Shown here: one piece after another, positions 14,439 to 63,243 of the stretch | Layout of the letters: the number at the start of each line of letters is the position of its first letter | How positions within the stretch are numbered: the first letter of the stretch is position 1 | Assembly: GCF_000478825.2 (NCBI RefSeq) | Contig: NZ_CP007542.1 | Span: 1,798,001-1,862,000 of the forward strand | Direction: 5' to 3' | From: Synechocystis sp. PCC 6714 | GTDB lineage: Bacteria > Cyanobacteriota > Cyanobacteriia > Cyanobacteriales > Microcystaceae | DNA length: 64,000 bases | The notes under the pieces: model-generated | What the model saw: the letters and a program-made list of their open reading frames with translations, nothing else | Database searches by the model: none | What the model was told of the DNA's origin: nothing | Translations under genes and position numbers: made by a program

Positions 14439-14778
14439 ATTTTGCCTAGCCTTGTCTGGCGATCGCCGCGGTGGGAATAATTCGTCAACGTAGTGGCCAT
14501 GGGGGTAACGGCAGTGGCCTCAATCTGAATAAACCAACCGGAGGAGTAAGCTATATTTGATAGTTATAGGGACTATAACCTGGGTTTTTGTCCCACTTCC
14601 AAAATCTGTTCAGATCCACTCAAATATTTTAATTTTTTTAGCCAACACTTGGCGAAGAAAAATTATAAATCGACAACAATAATATTGTTTGAGGGTCTGT
14701 AAGGGACTTAAATTCAAGCAAAATCCATTACGCATCGGTTACCATCCCCTGGCGGATGACCTTTCCAGCGGAACGTCC
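14439..14778 (+). promoter_or_regulatory. Intergenic region tatA to GGDEF gene
   Basis: 340 bases without a convincing gene. The inverted repeat GTTATAG-GGA-CTATAAC lies at 14563-14579 and is followed at 14583 by GGGTTTTT, so it may act as a weak terminator or operator. AT-rich sequence from 14618 to 14690 probably contains the promoter of the GGDEF gene. Confidence 0.4.
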
Positions 14779-41068: not shown

Positions 41069-41369
41069 GGTGGAAACTCCTGCCCCATTATTTATGGTCC
41101 GGCAAAATATGGTTGAGTTGAACTCTCGCACACACCTTTAATTCTAACTTGCCCAGTTTAACCAACAGAGAACTTGATATCCTCTGCCTGGCATTTATAT
41201 TCATTTCAAATAATTTCGAGACTGCTTAAGTCTTTATTGACAAGCTTTTCGGTGAATTTGACTGCCTCAGTCTTACTGGAAACTACTATACGACGAAAAA
41301 ACGAGCCCAGTTTACTGAACTCGCTTTTTGACCACACCTGATTGAAGTCGACCGGTATGATGTTTGTAA
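41069..41369. other. Intergenic region between Usp gene and tRNA-Arg
   Basis: 301 bases. The only element I can support is the hairpin terminator at 41296-41329. The rest is AT-rich and presumably holds the promoter of the universal stress protein gene near 41070-41160. Confidence 0.5.
41296..41329 (-). terminator. Rho-independent terminator of tRNA-Arg
   Basis: CGAG (41302-41305) and CTCG (41320-41323) close an outer stem, and CAGT and ACTG inside can extend it. The stem is flanked by A6 on the left and T5 on the right, so on the minus strand the hairpin is followed by six T residues, 41 bases past the tRNA end. It could also work on the plus strand. Confidence 0.65.
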
Positions 41370-58176: not shown

Positions 58177-59343
58177 ATGAAAGCCATGATTTTGGCCGCC
58201 GGCAAGGGCACTCGGGTCAGACCAATCACCCATACCATTCCCAAGCCGATGATTCCTATTCTGCAAAAGCCAGTGATGGAATTTTTGTTGGAATTACTGC
58301 GGAAACATGGTTTCGACCAAATCATGGTTAATGTGAGCCACCTGGCGGAGGAAATAGAAAGTTATTTTCGCGATGGGCAGAGGTTCGGTGTGCAAATTGC
58401 CTATTCTTTTGAGGGCAATATTGTCGATGGAGATCTGGTGGGTAAGGCGTTGGGATCAGCCGGGGGACTGAAGAAAATACAGGAGTTTAATCCCTTTTTT
58501 GACGACACCTTTGTGGTTCTTTGCGGCGATGCACTCATTGATTTAGACCTCACCACCGCCGTCAAGCTCCACCGGGAAAAGGGGGCGATCGCCACCATTA
58601 TCACCAAAACGGTGCCCAAGGAATTGGTTTCTAGCTATGGGGTAGTGGTCACGGATGATAGGGGCAGAATTTTAACTTTTCAGGAAAAACCCGCAGTGGG
58701 GGAAGCCCTAAGCACGGAAATCAACACAGGCATTTACATTTTTGAACCGGAAGTAATTGACTATATCCCCTCGGGACAGGAGTACGATCTGGGGGGAGAT
58801 CTCTTTCCTAAATTGGTGGACAACGGCCTGCCCTTTTATGCAGTCAATATGGACTTTGAATGGGTAGACATTGGTAAGGTGCCGGACTATTGGCAAGCAA
58901 TCCGGGGAGTATTGTCCCGGGAAATCAAAAACGTACAAATTCCTGGCATTGAGGTCAGACCAGGGGTTTACACCGGCATTAACGTGGCTGCCAATTGGGA
59001 CAACATTGAAATTCGCGGCCCTGTGTACATCGGCGGCATGACCCGCATTGAAGACGGGGTAAAAATTGTTGGCCCTTCCATGATTGGCCCCAGTTGCTTG
59101 ATTTGTCAGGGGGCAGTGGTGGATAACAGCGTTATTTTTGAGTATTCTCGGTTGGGCCCTGGTGCCCGCTTAGTGGACAAATTGGTGTTTGGTCGTTACT
59201 GCGTGGATAAAACCGGGGCGGCGATCGATGTGCAGGCCGCCGCTTTAGACTGGCTAATTACCGATGCCCGCCATGCCGCAGTGCAATACCCCCAAGACTA
59301 CCAGCCCCAAAGGGAAATTTCCCAGCTTCTCCAGCCAGAATAG
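58177..59343 (+). CDS. Mannose-1-phosphate guanylyltransferase / NDP-sugar pyrophosphorylase
   Basis: 388-residue nucleotidyltransferase. The N-terminal Rossmann-like domain has the signature ILAAGKGTRVRPITHTIPKP, with LCGDALIDLDL for metal binding, ITFQEKP-like RILTFQEKP and INTGIYIFEP. The C-terminal third is a left-handed beta helix of hexapeptide type (IRGPVYIGGMTRIEDGVKIVG). The PCC 6803 counterpart is annotated mpg (sll1558), making GDP-mannose; glucose-1-phosphate is an alternative. The frame begins with two TTG codons at 58171, but ATG 58177 is the start. A 95-bp MITE-like repeat lies 62 bases downstream. Confidence 0.85.
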   Translation: MKAMILAAGKGTRVRPITHTIPKPMIPILQKPVMEFLLELLRKHGFDQIMVNVSHLAEEIESYFRDGQRFGVQIAYSFEGNIVDGDLVGKALGSAGGLKKIQEFNPFFDDTFVVLCGDALIDLDLTTAVKLHREKGAIATIITKTVPKELVSSYGVVVTDDRGRILTFQEKPAVGEALSTEINTGIYIFEPEVIDYIPSGQEYDLGGDLFPKLVDNGLPFYAVNMDFEWVDIGKVPDYWQAIRGVLSREIKNVQIPGIEVRPGVYTGINVAANWDNIEIRGPVYIGGMTRIEDGVKIVGPSMIGPSCLICQGAVVDNSVIFEYSRLGPGARLVDKLVFGRYCVDKTGAAIDVQAAALDWLITDARHAAVQYPQDYQPQREISQLLQPE

Positions 59344-59404
59344 GGCAACCAAGGGCTCACTCAGTTTGGGTAGAGTTCCAACTCGACCTAGATAGCTAGC
59401 CAAG

Positions 59405-59499
59405 TATAGTTGATTTAATTGAAAGTAAGACACTGACTAAAGCTAAAAGCGTCTTTGGTAAAGACTTTGGTCATCTCAATCTTATTTGAATTGACTATA
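59405..59499 (+). mobile_element. MITE-like repeat, copy 1
   Basis: 95-bp element beginning TATAGTTGATTTAATTGA and ending TTTGAATTGACTATA, so the ends are imperfect terminal inverted repeats of about 15 bases opening with TATAGT. It contains a perfect inner hairpin GTCTTT-GGT-AAAGAC (59451-59465). A second copy in opposite orientation is at 62533-62627; over 95 aligned bases I count 12 differences and no gaps. Size, inverted ends and TA borders fit a miniature element mobilised by an IS630/Tc1-type transposase, which is not in the window. The last five bases overlap the HEAT-repeat gene's stop codon. Confidence 0.75.
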
Positions 59500-60160
59500 A
59501 ATCTAGTTTTTGTAGGGAAAGCTGGGCCGCCTGGCACACCTGGGGATGTTCATCCCGGACCATAAATGTCAAGGCAGAACGACTCTGGTCGCAGGGTAAA
59601 TTACCCAGGGCTTCTGCCAATCTTTGTCGAATTAACCAATCTTCGTGGGAGGCAAAGGCTAAAATTGCTTCCACTGCTTCCACTGCGCCAATTTCCCCCA
59701 GGGCGGCGATCGCCGCTTGTTGTACCACGGCCTCATCACTTTTCAGGGCTTCCAGCAAAACTTCTTTGGCCCGGATGTCCTTTAAATTGCCCAAAGCAAC
59801 CGCAGCGCTGAACCGCACCAGCCATTCTGTGTCTTCATAAAAAGCTCTGCAGAGGGGGTAGAATGCCCGTTCGTCTTCCAGGTAACCTAGGGCCCCCGCC
59901 GCATCGGCCCGGATGCCATAATCCTCATCAGTTTCCAACAGCTTAACCAAAATGGGATAACATTCCTCCGTCTGTTTAATGCCCAGGGCAAATACCGCCA
60001 TGGACCGCACCTGTAACATTTCGTCATCAAGGACTTTTTTGATCAGGGGCACCGCCTCTTCACTGGAATAGGGCCGCAGGGAAGCTAGGGCAATGAGGCG
60101 ATCGCGGGAGTTGGGACTGTCTAGTTGGCTGGCAATTTGTTCGAGGGTCAGGGCTGACAT
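59495..60160 (-). CDS. HEAT-repeat protein (NblB/CpcE-like)
   Basis: 221-residue protein made almost entirely of HEAT/PBS-lyase repeats (SPNSRDRLIALASLRPYSSEEA, DEDYGIRADAAGALGYLEDERA, DEAVVQQAAIAALGEIGAVEA). The repeats are of the type in phycobilin lyase CpcE and the phycobilisome-degradation protein NblB. The PCC 6803 counterpart (slr1687, from memory) is annotated nblB. It could bind phycobiliproteins or their chromophore during bleaching. The stop codon TAG at 59497-59495 is formed by the terminal inverted repeat of the MITE-like element, so the present C-terminus may be shaped by that insertion. Confidence 0.82.
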   Translation of the reverse strand: MSALTLEQIASQLDSPNSRDRLIALASLRPYSSEEAVPLIKKVLDDEMLQVRSMAVFALGIKQTEECYPILVKLLETDEDYGIRADAAGALGYLEDERAFYPLCRAFYEDTEWLVRFSAAVALGNLKDIRAKEVLLEALKSDEAVVQQAAIAALGEIGAVEAVEAILAFASHEDWLIRQRLAEALGNLPCDQSRSALTFMVRDEHPQVCQAAQLSLQKLDL

Positions 60161-60334
60161 AGATAGTTTTCTGAGAATTCATGGTGCTATTGTAACAAAA
60201 CTTTATGAAAGAGCAGGGGCATTTCCCCCTGGCGATCGGTCGGTAAACCCTCCACTGGGAGATTTTCCCCGAGCAACATAATCCCGTAAACTTTCTTAAT
60301 ACAGTTCGTCCCCTGAGGACAGGAGGAAATTGCG

Positions 60335-60634
60335 GTGACCATCACCTTTGTTAAAGAGCAAAAAGATGTCGTGGTAGCCCAGGGAGCAAACCTACGGGAG
60401 AAAGCCCTACAAAATGGGGTTGATATTTATACCCTCAAGGGCAAGTTGATGAACTGTGGCGGCTACGGCCAATGTGGCACCTGTATCGTGGAAATCACAG
60501 CGGGCATGGAGAATCTTTCTCCCAGAACTGATTTTGAAAATAGGGTGTTGCGGAAAAAGCCAGAGAATTTTCGTCTCGCCTGCCAAACCCTAGTCAATGG
60601 CCCGGTGAGTGTGAACACTAAGCCGAAAGGTTAA
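60335..60634 (+). CDS. 2Fe-2S ferredoxin
   Basis: 99-residue ferredoxin with cluster ligands Cys41, Cys47, Cys50 and Cys83 (C-x5-C-x2-C-x32-C). The five-residue first gap differs from the four-residue gap of plant-type photosynthetic ferredoxins and is closer to adrenodoxin/ISC-type spacing, so a specialised, non-photosynthetic electron carrier is likely. It starts at GTG 60335 with a strong AGGAGG nine bases before it. The stop codon is one base from the end of the convergent FHA gene. The redox partner is unknown. Confidence 0.9.
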
Positions 60635-60635
60635 C

Positions 60636-61061
60636 TCAGTTAATGATGGTTTCTTTCGCATCCCCTGGATGGGAGCGGCGGGGTTCATATTCTTCTCCGA
60701 CTTCTTCTCCAGGGATATTTTGTCTAGTTGCCTCCCATGGGGAAGGGCTAACTTCCGACTGCAGTTTGATTTGTATTTTTGGACCAGAACTGGCCAGCCG
60801 CAGTACCATGCCATCCTCGAGGGGAAGTTTGTCCACAGTCTTGCTCTCTAGATAAGTACCATTAGCCCCCAGGTTAATCGCCACCCATCCATCTTGTTCC
60901 CTTTGTAACTCTAGGTGGTGGCGGGACACCACAGCACTGTAAAGTACCACATCGTTATCCGCTGCCCGACCGACACGAATGGCGGACTCAGACTCAAAAG
61001 TCCAACTTTGGACAGGAACACTTTTGCCCGGTAGAAGAAGGGTGAGGGTGATGGCGGACAT
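60636..61061 (-). CDS. FHA-domain protein
   Basis: 141-residue protein with one forkhead-associated domain (about 20-95): IRVGRAADNDVVLYSAVVSRHHLEL and NLGANGTYLESK contain the phosphothreonine-binding Gly-Arg, Ser-xx-His and Asn residues. The C-terminal 45 residues are charged and probably disordered. FHA domains read Thr-phosphorylated proteins, so this may act downstream of Hanks-type kinases such as SpkB in this window, though no direct link is visible. Single gene, convergent with the ferredoxin. Confidence 0.88.
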   Translation of the reverse strand: MSAITLTLLLPGKSVPVQSWTFESESAIRVGRAADNDVVLYSAVVSRHHLELQREQDGWVAINLGANGTYLESKTVDKLPLEDGMVLRLASSGPKIQIKLQSEVSPSPWEATRQNIPGEEVGEEYEPRRSHPGDAKETIIN

Positions 61062-61368
61062 TCAAGTTATGCGTATCGTTGTAATTGACTTAACCAACTG
61101 TTCCCCATTGTACTGTCTGTCCTGCGATTGCATGGGGATATCTTGGGGACATCCGGGATCTCCTTGCCAGTGGGTCACTTTCCCCCAGAGCAAAGGTGAT
61201 CGAGAAAGTTAAGTCGGGGCCACAGGACAGATTTTGCCAGCGCCATGTTTTGCTAATATGGGAAGCCTGACTATCATGCCCAATACGCCAGGCATTGATA
61301 ACAATTAACAACAAATTAACCCTAGAAAATTACCTGACTGCGTTTAGCGAAGGGGAGGACTGACCGCG
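61062..61368 (+). promoter_or_regulatory. Upstream region of aminotransferase gene
   Basis: 307 bases between divergent FHA and aminotransferase genes, without a convincing ORF. A strong Shine-Dalgarno AGGGGAGGA lies at 61351-61359 before the aminotransferase start. The AT-rich stretch 61290-61335 is a likely promoter area. No riboswitch-like structure recognised. Confidence 0.45.
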
Positions 61369-62523
61369 ATGGATAATAAGCAGATGTTGATGATTCCGGG
61401 GCCAACTCCCGTACCAGAAAAAGTTTTGTTGGCCATGGCGAAACATCCCATTGGCCACCGTAGTGGTGACTTTAGCAAAATCATTGCTGAACTGACAGCA
61501 AACCTGAAATGGTTGCATCAAACTGAAAACGATGTGTTGATGCTGACCACCAGCGGTACTGGGGCCATGGAAGCAGGCATTATCAATTTCCTTAGTCCTG
61601 GTGATCGAGTGCTGGTGGGCAATAACGGTAAATTTGGGGATCGTTGGGTTAAGGTTGCCAAAACCTTTGGCTTGGCAGTGGAGGAAGTTAAGGCGGAATG
61701 GGGCAAAGCTCTCGACCCCAATGATTTTAAAGTTCTCTTGGAAGCGGACAGCAATAAAACCATTAAAGCCCTGATTATCACCCATTCTGAGACTTCCACT
61801 GGGGTTTTGAACGATCTAGCCGCCATCAATACCGCTGCTAAAGCCCATGGTGAGGCGTTGATGATTGTCGATGCAGTAACCAGTTTAGGCGCTACTCCCG
61901 TGGCGATCGATGAGCTGGGTTTAGACGTGGTGGCATCGGGCTCCCAAAAGGGCTATATGATTCCCCCAGGTTTAGGTTTTGTGTCTGTCAGTGCCAAGGC
62001 CTGGAAAGCCTACGAAACCGCCACTATTCCCCGTTTCTATCTGGATTTGAAAAAATATAAGAAGTCCACTGACGAAGACAGCTCCCCCTTTACACCTCCC
62101 ATTAATTTAATGTATGGGTTGCAAGCGTCCCTGCAAATGATGCAAGCGGAGGGTTTAGAAGCTATTTTTACCCGCCACCAAAGGCATACCAATGCGACTC
62201 GGGCGGCAATGAAAGCTTTGAATTTACCTTTGTTTGCCCCCGACAATGCTGCCAGTAATGCCATTACCGCCGTTGCTCCCCTAGGAGTAGAAGCGGAAAA
62301 AATTCGCAGTACGATGCGGAAAAAATTCGATATTGCCATGGCCGGTGGTCAGGATCATCTCAAGGGCAAAATCTTCCGTATTGGGCACTTAGGTTTTGTT
62401 TGTGATCGGGATATCCTTAGTTGCATTGGAGCTTTGGAAGCTACTTTGATCGAGCTTGGTTATGAAGGGGTAACTCCTGGAGCCGGGGTGGCGGCCGCCG
62501 CTGGAATTTTGGCTCAAGCTTAA
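61369..62523 (+). CDS. Class V aminotransferase (serine/alanine-glyoxylate type)
   Basis: 384-residue PLP enzyme. The start MIPGPTPVPEKVLLAMAKHPIGHRS, TTSGTGAMEAG, VDAVTSLGATPVAIDELGLD and the Schiff-base Lys in ASGSQKGYMIPPG identify the serine/alanine:glyoxylate aminotransferase family, expected to act in photorespiratory glycine/serine metabolism. The PCC 6803 counterpart (sll1559) has long carried the label 'soluble hydrogenase 42 kDa subunit', which the sequence does not support: there is no hydrogenase motif. The second copy of the MITE-like repeat begins ten bases after its stop. Confidence 0.92.
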   Translation: MDNKQMLMIPGPTPVPEKVLLAMAKHPIGHRSGDFSKIIAELTANLKWLHQTENDVLMLTTSGTGAMEAGIINFLSPGDRVLVGNNGKFGDRWVKVAKTFGLAVEEVKAEWGKALDPNDFKVLLEADSNKTIKALIITHSETSTGVLNDLAAINTAAKAHGEALMIVDAVTSLGATPVAIDELGLDVVASGSQKGYMIPPGLGFVSVSAKAWKAYETATIPRFYLDLKKYKKSTDEDSSPFTPPINLMYGLQASLQMMQAEGLEAIFTRHQRHTNATRAAMKALNLPLFAPDNAASNAITAVAPLGVEAEKIRSTMRKKFDIAMAGGQDHLKGKIFRIGHLGFVCDRDILSCIGALEATLIELGYEGVTPGAGVAAAAGILAQA

Positions 62524-62532
62524 AATTTCTAC

Positions 62533-62627
62533 TATAGTCAATCAAAGTAAGATTGAGATGACTAGGGTCTTTACCAATGACGCTTTTAGCGCCGGTCAGT
62601 GTCTTACTCTCAATTAAATCAACTATA
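62533..62627 (-). mobile_element. MITE-like repeat, copy 2 (inverted)
   Basis: 95-bp element in opposite orientation to copy 1, with ends TATAGTCAATCAAAG and TAAATCAACTATA. The inner hairpin has one mismatch compared with copy 1. It begins ten bases after the aminotransferase stop and may serve as its terminator. It faces copy 1 across about 3 kb. Confidence 0.75.
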
Positions 62628-63243
62628 AAAGTCGTCCATTGAGACTGTCGGAGCGACCAATTAATCTCCCTGCATACCCTTTAAGGTTGCCGGGAGAAAT
62701 TGTCCGTGTTGCTATTTCATGAAACAGTTTGGCTATTCAAAGACTTTAGCTTACGGGCGATCGCCAAACTGGCCCTAAAATATTAAGAATTGTTGCTGTT
62801 TCTTGTTTCATCTGTTAACGTGTGCCTTAGAGAGCGAATTCGACCACGCTGAAACAACTTTAGGAGGCGTTTACCATGCTCCCCATTTATGAGTGCCAGT
62901 CAAGTCACCACACCTTAGACTGAAGAACTAACTTGGACAATGTTCTGGGGCTTGAGTCAGTAGTTATTCCCCCATTGTCTGGAGCATCTTAGCTCCCTCC
63001 ATAGCTGGTGATTTTCCCAGTCGCATTTAGAATCAATTACAGTTTTCAAGCAAGCTTGGTCCTCTGGATTGCCTTGGTTCATTCCCCGCTAGCACCTGGA
63101 ATGCCAAGTGGTTCCTGCGCCATGGAGTTAATGAGACCAGCTATCTCAACTATTTCAACCAATTTAAACAATTCCCCTGTCAACATCCGTTTCGTACCCA
63201 TCTACAGAGGGGAACACGCCTCATATTCCATAGGAGGTAAGCA
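62628..63243 (+). promoter_or_regulatory. Long leader region before SDR gene
   Basis: 616 bases with no full-size gene. From left to right: an AT-rich zone with a HIP1 site near 62757; a 15-codon ORF with ideal Shine-Dalgarno (62876-62923); a stem-loop GGAGC-ATCTTA-GCTCC at 62981-62996; a 48-codon ORF (63101-63247) ending in ATGA overlap with the SDR start; and the SDR Shine-Dalgarno AGGAGG at 63232-63237. The layout resembles an attenuator or translational-coupling leader. Confidence 0.45.
62876..62923 (+). CDS. Candidate 15-residue leader peptide
   Basis: ATG at 62876 is preceded by AGGAGG (62862-62867) with an eight-base gap, the best ribosome-binding site of the region, and the frame reads MLPIYECQSSHHTLD before TGA. 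There is no run of a single regulatory amino acid, though His-His and Cys occur. A stem-loop follows 57 bases later. It may be a leader peptide controlling the downstream SDR, or a small protein in its own right. Confidence 0.4.
   Translation: MLPIYECQSSHHTLD

Follow-up and report, generated by a model that had tools for sequence, protein, structure and literature searches.

Two inverted 95-bp repeats in Synechocystis sp. PCC 6714 as probable copies of a non-autonomous IS630/Tc1-type MITE

Two 95-bp repeats lying in opposite orientation in the window, a 64,000-nucleotide stretch of the Synechocystis sp. PCC 6714 genome, are almost certainly copies of one non-autonomous MITE of the IS630/Tc1 type, here named MITE-A. 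As judged from its sequence, the family is multicopy, dispersed and TA-bordered, with a target consensus, nested insertions, empty sites and IS630-like ends, including a 26/26 match to the end of an IS630 element, and these properties support an earlier note that had proposed a MITE-like element mobilised by an IS630/Tc1-type transposase. The family is new, although elements of its kind are well known.

Copy 1 occupies positions 59405–59499 on the plus strand and copy 2 positions 62533–62627 on the minus strand, each 95 bp long with both flanking TA counted in. Alignment of copy 1 with the reverse complement of copy 2 reproduces the 12 differences over 95 bases, gap-free, that had been described before, and in a search with seed 10 the pair was the sole inverted repeat of at least 40 bases in the window. 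The ends, TATAGT...ACTATA, form 26-bp imperfect inverted repeats that match at 18/26 positions within each copy; in copy 1, the left repeat, starting with TATAGT, spans 59405–59430 (plus strand) and the right repeat 59474–59499 (minus strand). An inner hairpin had likewise been described before; in copy 1 it is GTCTTT-GGT-AAAGAC (59451–59465, plus strand), and it is found both in the sequence and in the predicted fold, in which two inner hairpins sit on a long stem (RNA z −3.59, DNA z −2.33). The inner pairing of copy 2 differs from this (RNA z −2.57).

A whole-genome check, which the earlier note had proposed, uncovered many more copies and left the MITE reading standing. The first genome-wide BLAST gave 42 matches (40 candidates scored), and a search with model R1 (150 of 2,609 candidates scored) found 83 MITE-A copies, whole or partial, with 77 on the chromosome and six on three smaller contigs, such that all four contigs are occupied; with this number the repeat lies far beyond chance. 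One of these copies (G000:C1:483529-483623) is identical to copy 1 at 95/95 bases, and seven pairs of identical copies occur among the 71 copies that are 95 bases long. Per-position variation is 3.0% and 5.9% in the end repeats, 5.6% in the inner hairpin and 14–18% at the two joints. MITE-A is short and carries no transposase gene. A 31-codon frame (+2) is open in 58 of the 71 copies with no signal of selection, and the idea that the net 93-bp insertion adds 31 open codons in frame to a protein was rejected, as changes at the three codon positions number 147, 121 and 131, the synonymous share is the same as for random changes and the surrounding open stretches are mostly short.

BLAST gave no MITE-A match in any of the four congeneric genomes. 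Model R1 likewise found nothing in G001–G003 and five weak matches in G004 (E 0.0056–0.08), two of which were inspected and belong to another family. Under stricter filters, the PCC 6714 genome alone carries MITE-A among 50 genomes of the taxonomic family, with 20 weak matches in G060. BLAST at E 1e-5 detected no MITE-A in plasmid or phage sequences, nor did one exact 27-base core pattern in viral contigs; records of the genome itself are possibly absent from these collections. A length of 95 bp recurs in MITE-A, in a second family of the same genome (MITE-B) and in families of G016 and G018, and one of 94–95 bp in G060, a recurrence that is biased because the search model has a length of 95 too. 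Other lengths exist, namely 106 bp in the G004 family and, as we interpret them, spacings of 127–221 between such ends in G029.

The borders and flanks of the copies point to insertion at TA. Of the 76 whole MITE-A rows (seven partial rows excluded), 70 have a TA on either side and six lack it at one or both ends. The flanks of the 70 TA-bordered rows give the target consensus A-N-T-TA-A-N-T, with A(−3) in 42/70, T(−1) in 40/70, A(+1) in 37/70 and T(+3) in 36/70. Two insertions of MITE-A into MITE-A (L011, L030) and one of an IS630 element into MITE-A (L054) were found, and all three share the target GATT-TA-ATT. The related strains also provide an empty site, for which the earlier note had proposed to look, with the site orthologous to that of copy 1 element-free and collinear in G003 and G004; G001 and G002 are unusable here because they are not collinear. 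The relatives do not preserve the target TA at this site, with a 4-base gap in G003 and CA in G004; at two others, 1776390 and 1226946, they do. Among eight further sites, three gave an orthologous-looking match on a single side, one was unmatched and four crossed the junction. One of these four, C1:1488030, resembled an empty site at first sight and is a paralogous comparison, because it falls within a decayed duplicate of a gene for an FAD-linked oxidase; the oxidase copy just before it is 96% identical to that of G003. For site 3255157, the left flank matches one place in G003 and the right flank three other places.

The two copies in the window bracket four genes, and the assignments made in the earlier note agree with Pfam. 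These are a HEAT-repeat gene (HEAT_2; 59495–60160, minus strand), a 2Fe-2S ferredoxin-type gene (Fer2; 60335–60634, plus strand), an FHA-domain gene (FHA; 60636–61061, minus strand) and a class-V aminotransferase gene (Aminotran_5; 61369–62523, plus strand), whose stop lies 9 bases from copy 2. The HEAT-repeat reading frame terminates within copy 1, which provides its TAG stop codon, a feature absent from the earlier note; the protein ends in ...QKLDL in the window versus ...QKLELPS as read from sequence L078. The copies are inverted, 3,033 nt apart and 87% complementary. It had been suggested that recombination between them could invert the 3-kb block, and a synteny border just right of copy 2 would fit such a device. 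However, gene order and orientation within the block are unchanged in G003, G004 and L078 (possibly the same genome as G004), all without the elements, and thus no inversion is seen. A further 81 copies are scattered elsewhere in the genome, and the partner sites of the border in the genome itself (~C1:1237576 and ~C1:2239941), which correspond to the neighbouring sequence in the relatives, have no match to MITE-A or MITE-B at E 0.001. MITE–MITE recombination behind this border was rejected on the same absence, which a lost copy may explain. We regard a role of the pair as an inversion device as extremely improbable.

Stable folding raises the question of whether the repeats are instead a dispersed, conserved structured RNA or a REP-like regulatory repeat. 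Both window copies fold better than shuffled sequences, in 59 of 74 copies the top-strand fold is the more stable of the two, many one-sided changes preserve the pair via G-U, the position is strongly biased to gene ends and the RNAalifold covariation term for 31 copies is small and favourable (−1.39 of −16.25). Set against this, both-sided changes occur at 0/29 consensus pairs in 31 copies and, among 67 distinct copies, at 0/21 top-strand pairs and 1/15 bottom-strand pairs (four rows), with covariation terms of +0.52 (top) and +0.72 (bottom), which we take as unfavourable. Rfam gave no match within 59250–62800 at E values up to 1, the repeats were not found in congeners, and a structured RNA explains neither the TA borders nor the nested copies. 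Covariation had been named in the earlier note as a test, and compensatory changes are absent on the top strand. Structured RNA as the primary nature of the repeats is, on these comparisons, largely refuted, and we consider it very unlikely; the MITE reading stands.

For the MITE, the published ISY100 serves as the model: a transposase of the IS630/Tc1 type, supplied in trans and working by cut and paste, would bind both end repeats, each starting with TATAG, excise the 91-bp element and insert it at a TA, preferably within the target consensus; the TA would be duplicated upon insertion, for a net gain of 93 bp. An enzyme of the IS630/Tc1 kind is most likely, and there are two candidates. The first is a resident 957-bp IS630, presumably ISY523-like, with three copies alike in their ends and both protein frames; the genome has stop-free DDE_3 stretches. 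It has in common with MITE-A the TATAG ends, the TA borders and an insertion at the same MITE-A TA as MITE-A itself. Beyond TATAG, its ends match the right end of MITE-A at 12–15/21 (subfamily 1) or 11–13/21 (subfamily 2); for the left end the figure is 9–12/21. The comparison with resident IS ends suggested in the earlier note thus yielded the similarity (TATAG) and not an exact match, with 12–15/21 at best, at the right end. The second candidate would be an element, either lost or rarer, that is related to an intact 957-bp IS630 of G016, a genome of another genus. The G016 element has HTH_Tnp_IS630 and DDE_3 domains, and its left end (L031:1501-1526) is identical to the right end of copy 1 at 26/26 positions; the left MITE-A end fits it more poorly (13/21). 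The G016 proteins are ~56–68% identical to those of uninterrupted resident IS630 copies, and in the PCC 6714 genome the resident IS630 is the sole match to the G016 DNA (67–68%). The left end of MITE-A is a poor fit to every IS end tried (9–13/21 beyond TATAG). An end-pattern search of the genome with three mismatches allowed found no intact IS with exact MITE-A ends; its 52 matches are MITE-A ends, except for three MITE-B ends. With similar but poorer ends, the resident IS630 remains a candidate source of the partner enzyme. The core of MITE-A is not recognisable in the resident or the G016 IS630, and hence simple internal deletion of either does not account for MITE-A. An origin of the core from an IS interior was rejected, with best local scores no better than those of shuffles; in the nearest case, the MITE-B core against the G016 IS630, 31 of 200 shuffles reached the score.

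Both families are concentrated between convergent genes. MITE-B, also 95 bp long, has one copy in the window (41196–41290, minus strand; 96.8% identical to the MITE-B consensus over 95 bases) and was seen at no fewer than 31 places, 28 of which had flank enough for a context count; it is undercounted because the R1 list missed 3 of 4 MITE-B copies in a sampled 400 kb plus the window. With gene contexts from a crude ORF caller (at least 100 aa), 46 of 74 intergenic MITE-A copies and 20 of 27 intergenic MITE-B copies lie between convergent genes. Convergent gaps make up ~12% of intergenic sequence in the 400-kb sample, which we placed between listed MITE-A positions, and 15% in the window (8 of 43 gaps), corresponding to an approximately fivefold bias for both families. 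Such a bias could mean that the elements are kept at convergent junctions as two-way transcription stops, a role acquired after insertion, and copies that have a near-identical sister show the bias as strongly (18/32) as the others do (24/44). On the other hand, a terminator scan listed no site within either window copy, selection against insertions into promoters, operons and genes would yield the same pattern, and subfamily 1 is found more often within ORFs (4/15 versus 3/61 others, p 0.025; p 0.45 under an alternative definition), where ORF-internal counts vary between 8 and 7 by run for the same 76 rows. We hold two-way stops to be unlikely, and are similarly doubtful of the broader proposal that the IS630-type MITEs of this genome are steered into, or kept at, convergent junctions as two-way transcription insulators, in effect a mobile terminator kit.

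Taken as MITEs, the two families (83 copies and at least 31) are an addition to a much-studied cyanobacterial genus and account for a large set of intergenic repeats; no description of either in Synechocystis was found in the literature searched. Their target consensus, nested sites and empty sites provide a natural data set with which to ask what transposase serves a MITE, and also why MITEs accumulate between convergent genes. REP repeats are tied to tyrosine transposases (RAYT) and are not known to duplicate a TA. Length and TA borders speak against MITE-A being a REP or BIME. REP repeats resemble MITE-A in being palindromic and in favouring convergent and unidirectional intergenic space, and differ from it in their length of 20–40 bp (PMC3733652). 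The MITEs of Anabaena 90 (PMC3542288) and Microcystis (PMC11448079) and Nezha are all short, non-autonomous, multicopy and mostly intergenic like MITE-A, a comparison made by description and not by sequence. No IS evidently corresponds to the MITEs of Anabaena 90 (PMC3542288), and a 187-bp Microcystis MITE, unlike MITE-A, is tied to ISL3 with 8-nt direct repeats (PMC11448079). ISTcSa is given a count of 0 in strain 6714 (PMC4060947). This element, also named ISY100, belongs to the IS630/Tc1/mariner family and is described from Synechocystis PCC 6803; in contrast to MITE-A it is 947 bp long and encodes its own transposase (PMC2170065). Likened by description and not by end letters, the two share a duplicated TA target and imperfect end repeats, which in ISY100 are 24 bp long (PMC2170065).

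The 95-bp repeats at 59405–59499 (+) and 62533–62627 (−), present as the earlier note had described them, lie in opposite orientation, align pairwise without gaps over 95 bases with 12 differences and form the only inverted repeat of at least 40 bases that an inverted-repeat search found in the window (contig C1, 1798001–1862000). They belong to MITE-A, a real multicopy family of IS630/Tc1-type MITEs, ordinary in kind. BLAST with copy 1 gave at least 42 matches in the host genome, whose four contigs (3,485,441, 108,692, 103,516 and 41,240 bases) total 3,738,889 bases; 40 candidates were scored. R1, a sequence model built from 31 copies, gave at least 117 (150 of 2,609 candidates scored), of which at least 83, at 47 bits or more, constitute one family, MITE-A. 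These 83 copies are spread over the chromosome (77) and contigs C3 (four), C2 and C4 (one each), with 43 on the plus and 40 on the minus strand; 71 measure exactly 95 bases, five measure 94 or 96 and seven are partial. Among the matches listed, the other 34 scored 22–28 bits, and all 28 of those inspected belong to a second family of 95-bp elements, MITE-B, which totals at least 31 copies with three more found in the window (41196–41290, −) and in a 400-kb sample. The cores of the two families are weakly related (16 of 35 positions, p 0.0075). Because identical copies exist, MITE-A has probably been active recently, to judge from its sequences. A plasmid stretch of the host genome matches 11 plasmid records, all from Synechocystis. 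The literature searches listed no description of MITE-A, which, as far as they show, is a new family. The genome paper on PCC 6714 lists 11 IS630 for that strain and ISTcSa zero times; neither 'MITE' nor 'repeat' occurs in its main text (PMC4060947) or in the transcriptome paper (PMC5386190).

TA flanks both ends of 70 of the 76 whole copies, and the flanks, aligned on TA, follow the consensus A-N-T-TA-A-N-T (A 42, T 40, A 37 and T 36 of 70). At two loci, L011 and L030, one MITE-A is nested in another, and the host copy becomes whole again once the inner one and a single TA are removed. At L054 it is the resident IS630 that has entered a MITE-A, at the TA position used by the nested copies, and at L060 a MITE-A is inserted in an IS630. 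Another nested insertion occurs at locus L289, where a 23-base MITE-A left end (14701–14723) is followed by an apparent transposase gene, which we take to be of IS701 type. The copy 1 locus is present without the element in the congeners G003 and G004, and in L078, a locus whose numbers nearly equal those of G004 and which may come from the same genome, 94 bases separate the flanks; the target TA is not kept, with a 4-base gap in G003 and CA in G004. In this region, collinearity does not extend to two further congeners, G001 and G002, and the downstream side of copy 2 has no synteny in relatives. When eight other sites were compared jointly with relatives, matches at four of them crossed the junction: an ungapped match with TA in G003 (1776390), a match that keeps TA and stops 3 and 12 bases past it (1226946), one with gaps at the junction and TA not kept (818903), and a paralogous case with TA kept (1488030). 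Three of the remaining sites had an orthologous-form match on one flank only, and one had no match. At L005 (1202–1756; about C1 1487731–1488285) a MITE-A lies inside a decayed second copy of an FAD-linked oxidase gene, preceded by a well-preserved copy.

Inversion of the 3-kb block between the two window copies, also put forward in the earlier note, did not hold up, as the sequence left of copy 1, the inter-copy segment and the aminotransferase gene are collinear on one strand in G003, G004 and L078. The sequence right of copy 2 is located elsewhere in G003 and G004, and a rearrangement border therefore lies near copy 2; synteny breaks at 62524–62753, directly right of the aminotransferase gene, with the two sides about 0.8 Mb apart in G003. 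The host sites matching the relatives' neighbours (about C1 1237576 and 2239941) gave no MITE match, and a MITE-driven inversion has no support. The aminotransferase is 96% identical to its Synechocystis salina LEGE 00031 counterpart, and nine bases separate its stop codon from copy 2. The HEAT-repeat gene (59495–60160, −) has copy 1 at its 3' end, and its protein seems to have been shortened by the insertion by about two residues, because the element supplies the stop TAG and the C-terminus reads QKLDL, compared with QKLELPS in L078 (read by eye from the printed sequence). Four promoter-like sites occur in 59300–62800 (chance expectation 4.2); three, at 59383–59410, 62509–62538 and 62622–62651, have the MITE TATAGT end as second hexamer and are directed inward.

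The proposal of an IS630/Tc1-type transposase stands in outline. The host genome contains 16 DDE_3 domain stretches, 15 of them over the cut-off, and the main group is the resident IS630, an element of 957 bp including both TAs. Its ends read TATAGCTAAATGAAATAA... and TATAGCTAGTTAAAATAAC..., and it carries an HTH_Tnp_IS630 reading frame overlapped by a DDE_3 frame; loci L055, L056 and L057 have these same ends and the same two protein frames. Beyond TATAG, its ends match the MITE-A right end at 12–15 of 21 positions in subfamily 1 and 11–13 in the rest. In G016, a genome of another genus, the left end of an intact 957-bp element, whose DNA matches the resident one at 67–68%, has the same 26 bases as copy 1's right end. 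None of the IS ends tried is a good fit to the MITE-A left end (9–13 of 21). These comparisons support the IS630 assignment well but do not single out a partner: the resident enzyme has roughly an even chance of being it, and a lost or rarer relative a slightly lower one. For ISY100, published work describes cut-and-paste at TA by an enzyme of this type, with the terminal 30 bp on each side being enough in vitro (PMC2170065).

Both window copies fold better than shuffled sequences (z −3.6 to −2.3), as expected of an inverted repeat. A conserved structured RNA family is slightly favoured by the covariation term for 31 copies (−1.39), but both-sided changes affect none of 29 pairs in that set. 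With 67 distinct copies, such changes are absent from all 21 pairs of the top strand and present in one of the 15 on the bottom strand (in four rows), and the term becomes +0.52 and +0.72 (plus taken as unfavourable); Rfam gave no match up to E 1 in 59250–62800. MITE-A is very unlikely to be a structured RNA family. A weak RNA-level effect may remain, because many one-sided changes leave a G-U pair and, in 59 of 74 copies, the top strand has the greater stability. A coding insert was rejected, open frame +2 having no codon-position bias.

BLAST found no MITE-A in the four congeners; with R1, three gave no match and G004 five weak ones (E 0.0056–0.08), two of which, on inspection, are a 106-bp element with similar ends. 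Among 50 family genomes surveyed with stricter filters, the host is the only carrier, and G060 gave 20 weak matches. G016 and G018 have their own 95-bp elements with ends in common, the G016 core being unrelated to that of MITE-A (6 of 35 positions). Elements of 94–95 bp with this end type occur at six G016 loci (L172, L178, L182, L185, L188, L191) and in G060; the common length may reflect search bias.

On a crude ORF map, 74 of the 83 MITE-A copies are intergenic, eight lie inside ORFs and one at an edge. The intergenic copies lie between convergent (46), tandem (24) or divergent (4) genes; in a 400-kb genome sample, convergent spaces make up 11.8% of the intergenic sequence by length and contain 12.3% of its TA dinucleotides, and divergent ones about 30%. 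For MITE-B, 20 of 27 intergenic copies are convergent and none divergent, and the excess is about fivefold in both families; the resident IS630 lies between convergent genes in three of four cases. The ordinary reading is that copies landing close to promoters or within operons or genes are lost. In favour of such loss, subfamily 1 is found more often inside ORFs (4 of 15 vs 3 of 61, p 0.025; p 0.45 by a second definition of youth); partly against it, the bias is undiminished in copies with near-identical sisters (18 of 32, vs 24 of 44 others). REP repeats have been described as leaning in a similar way (PMC3733652).
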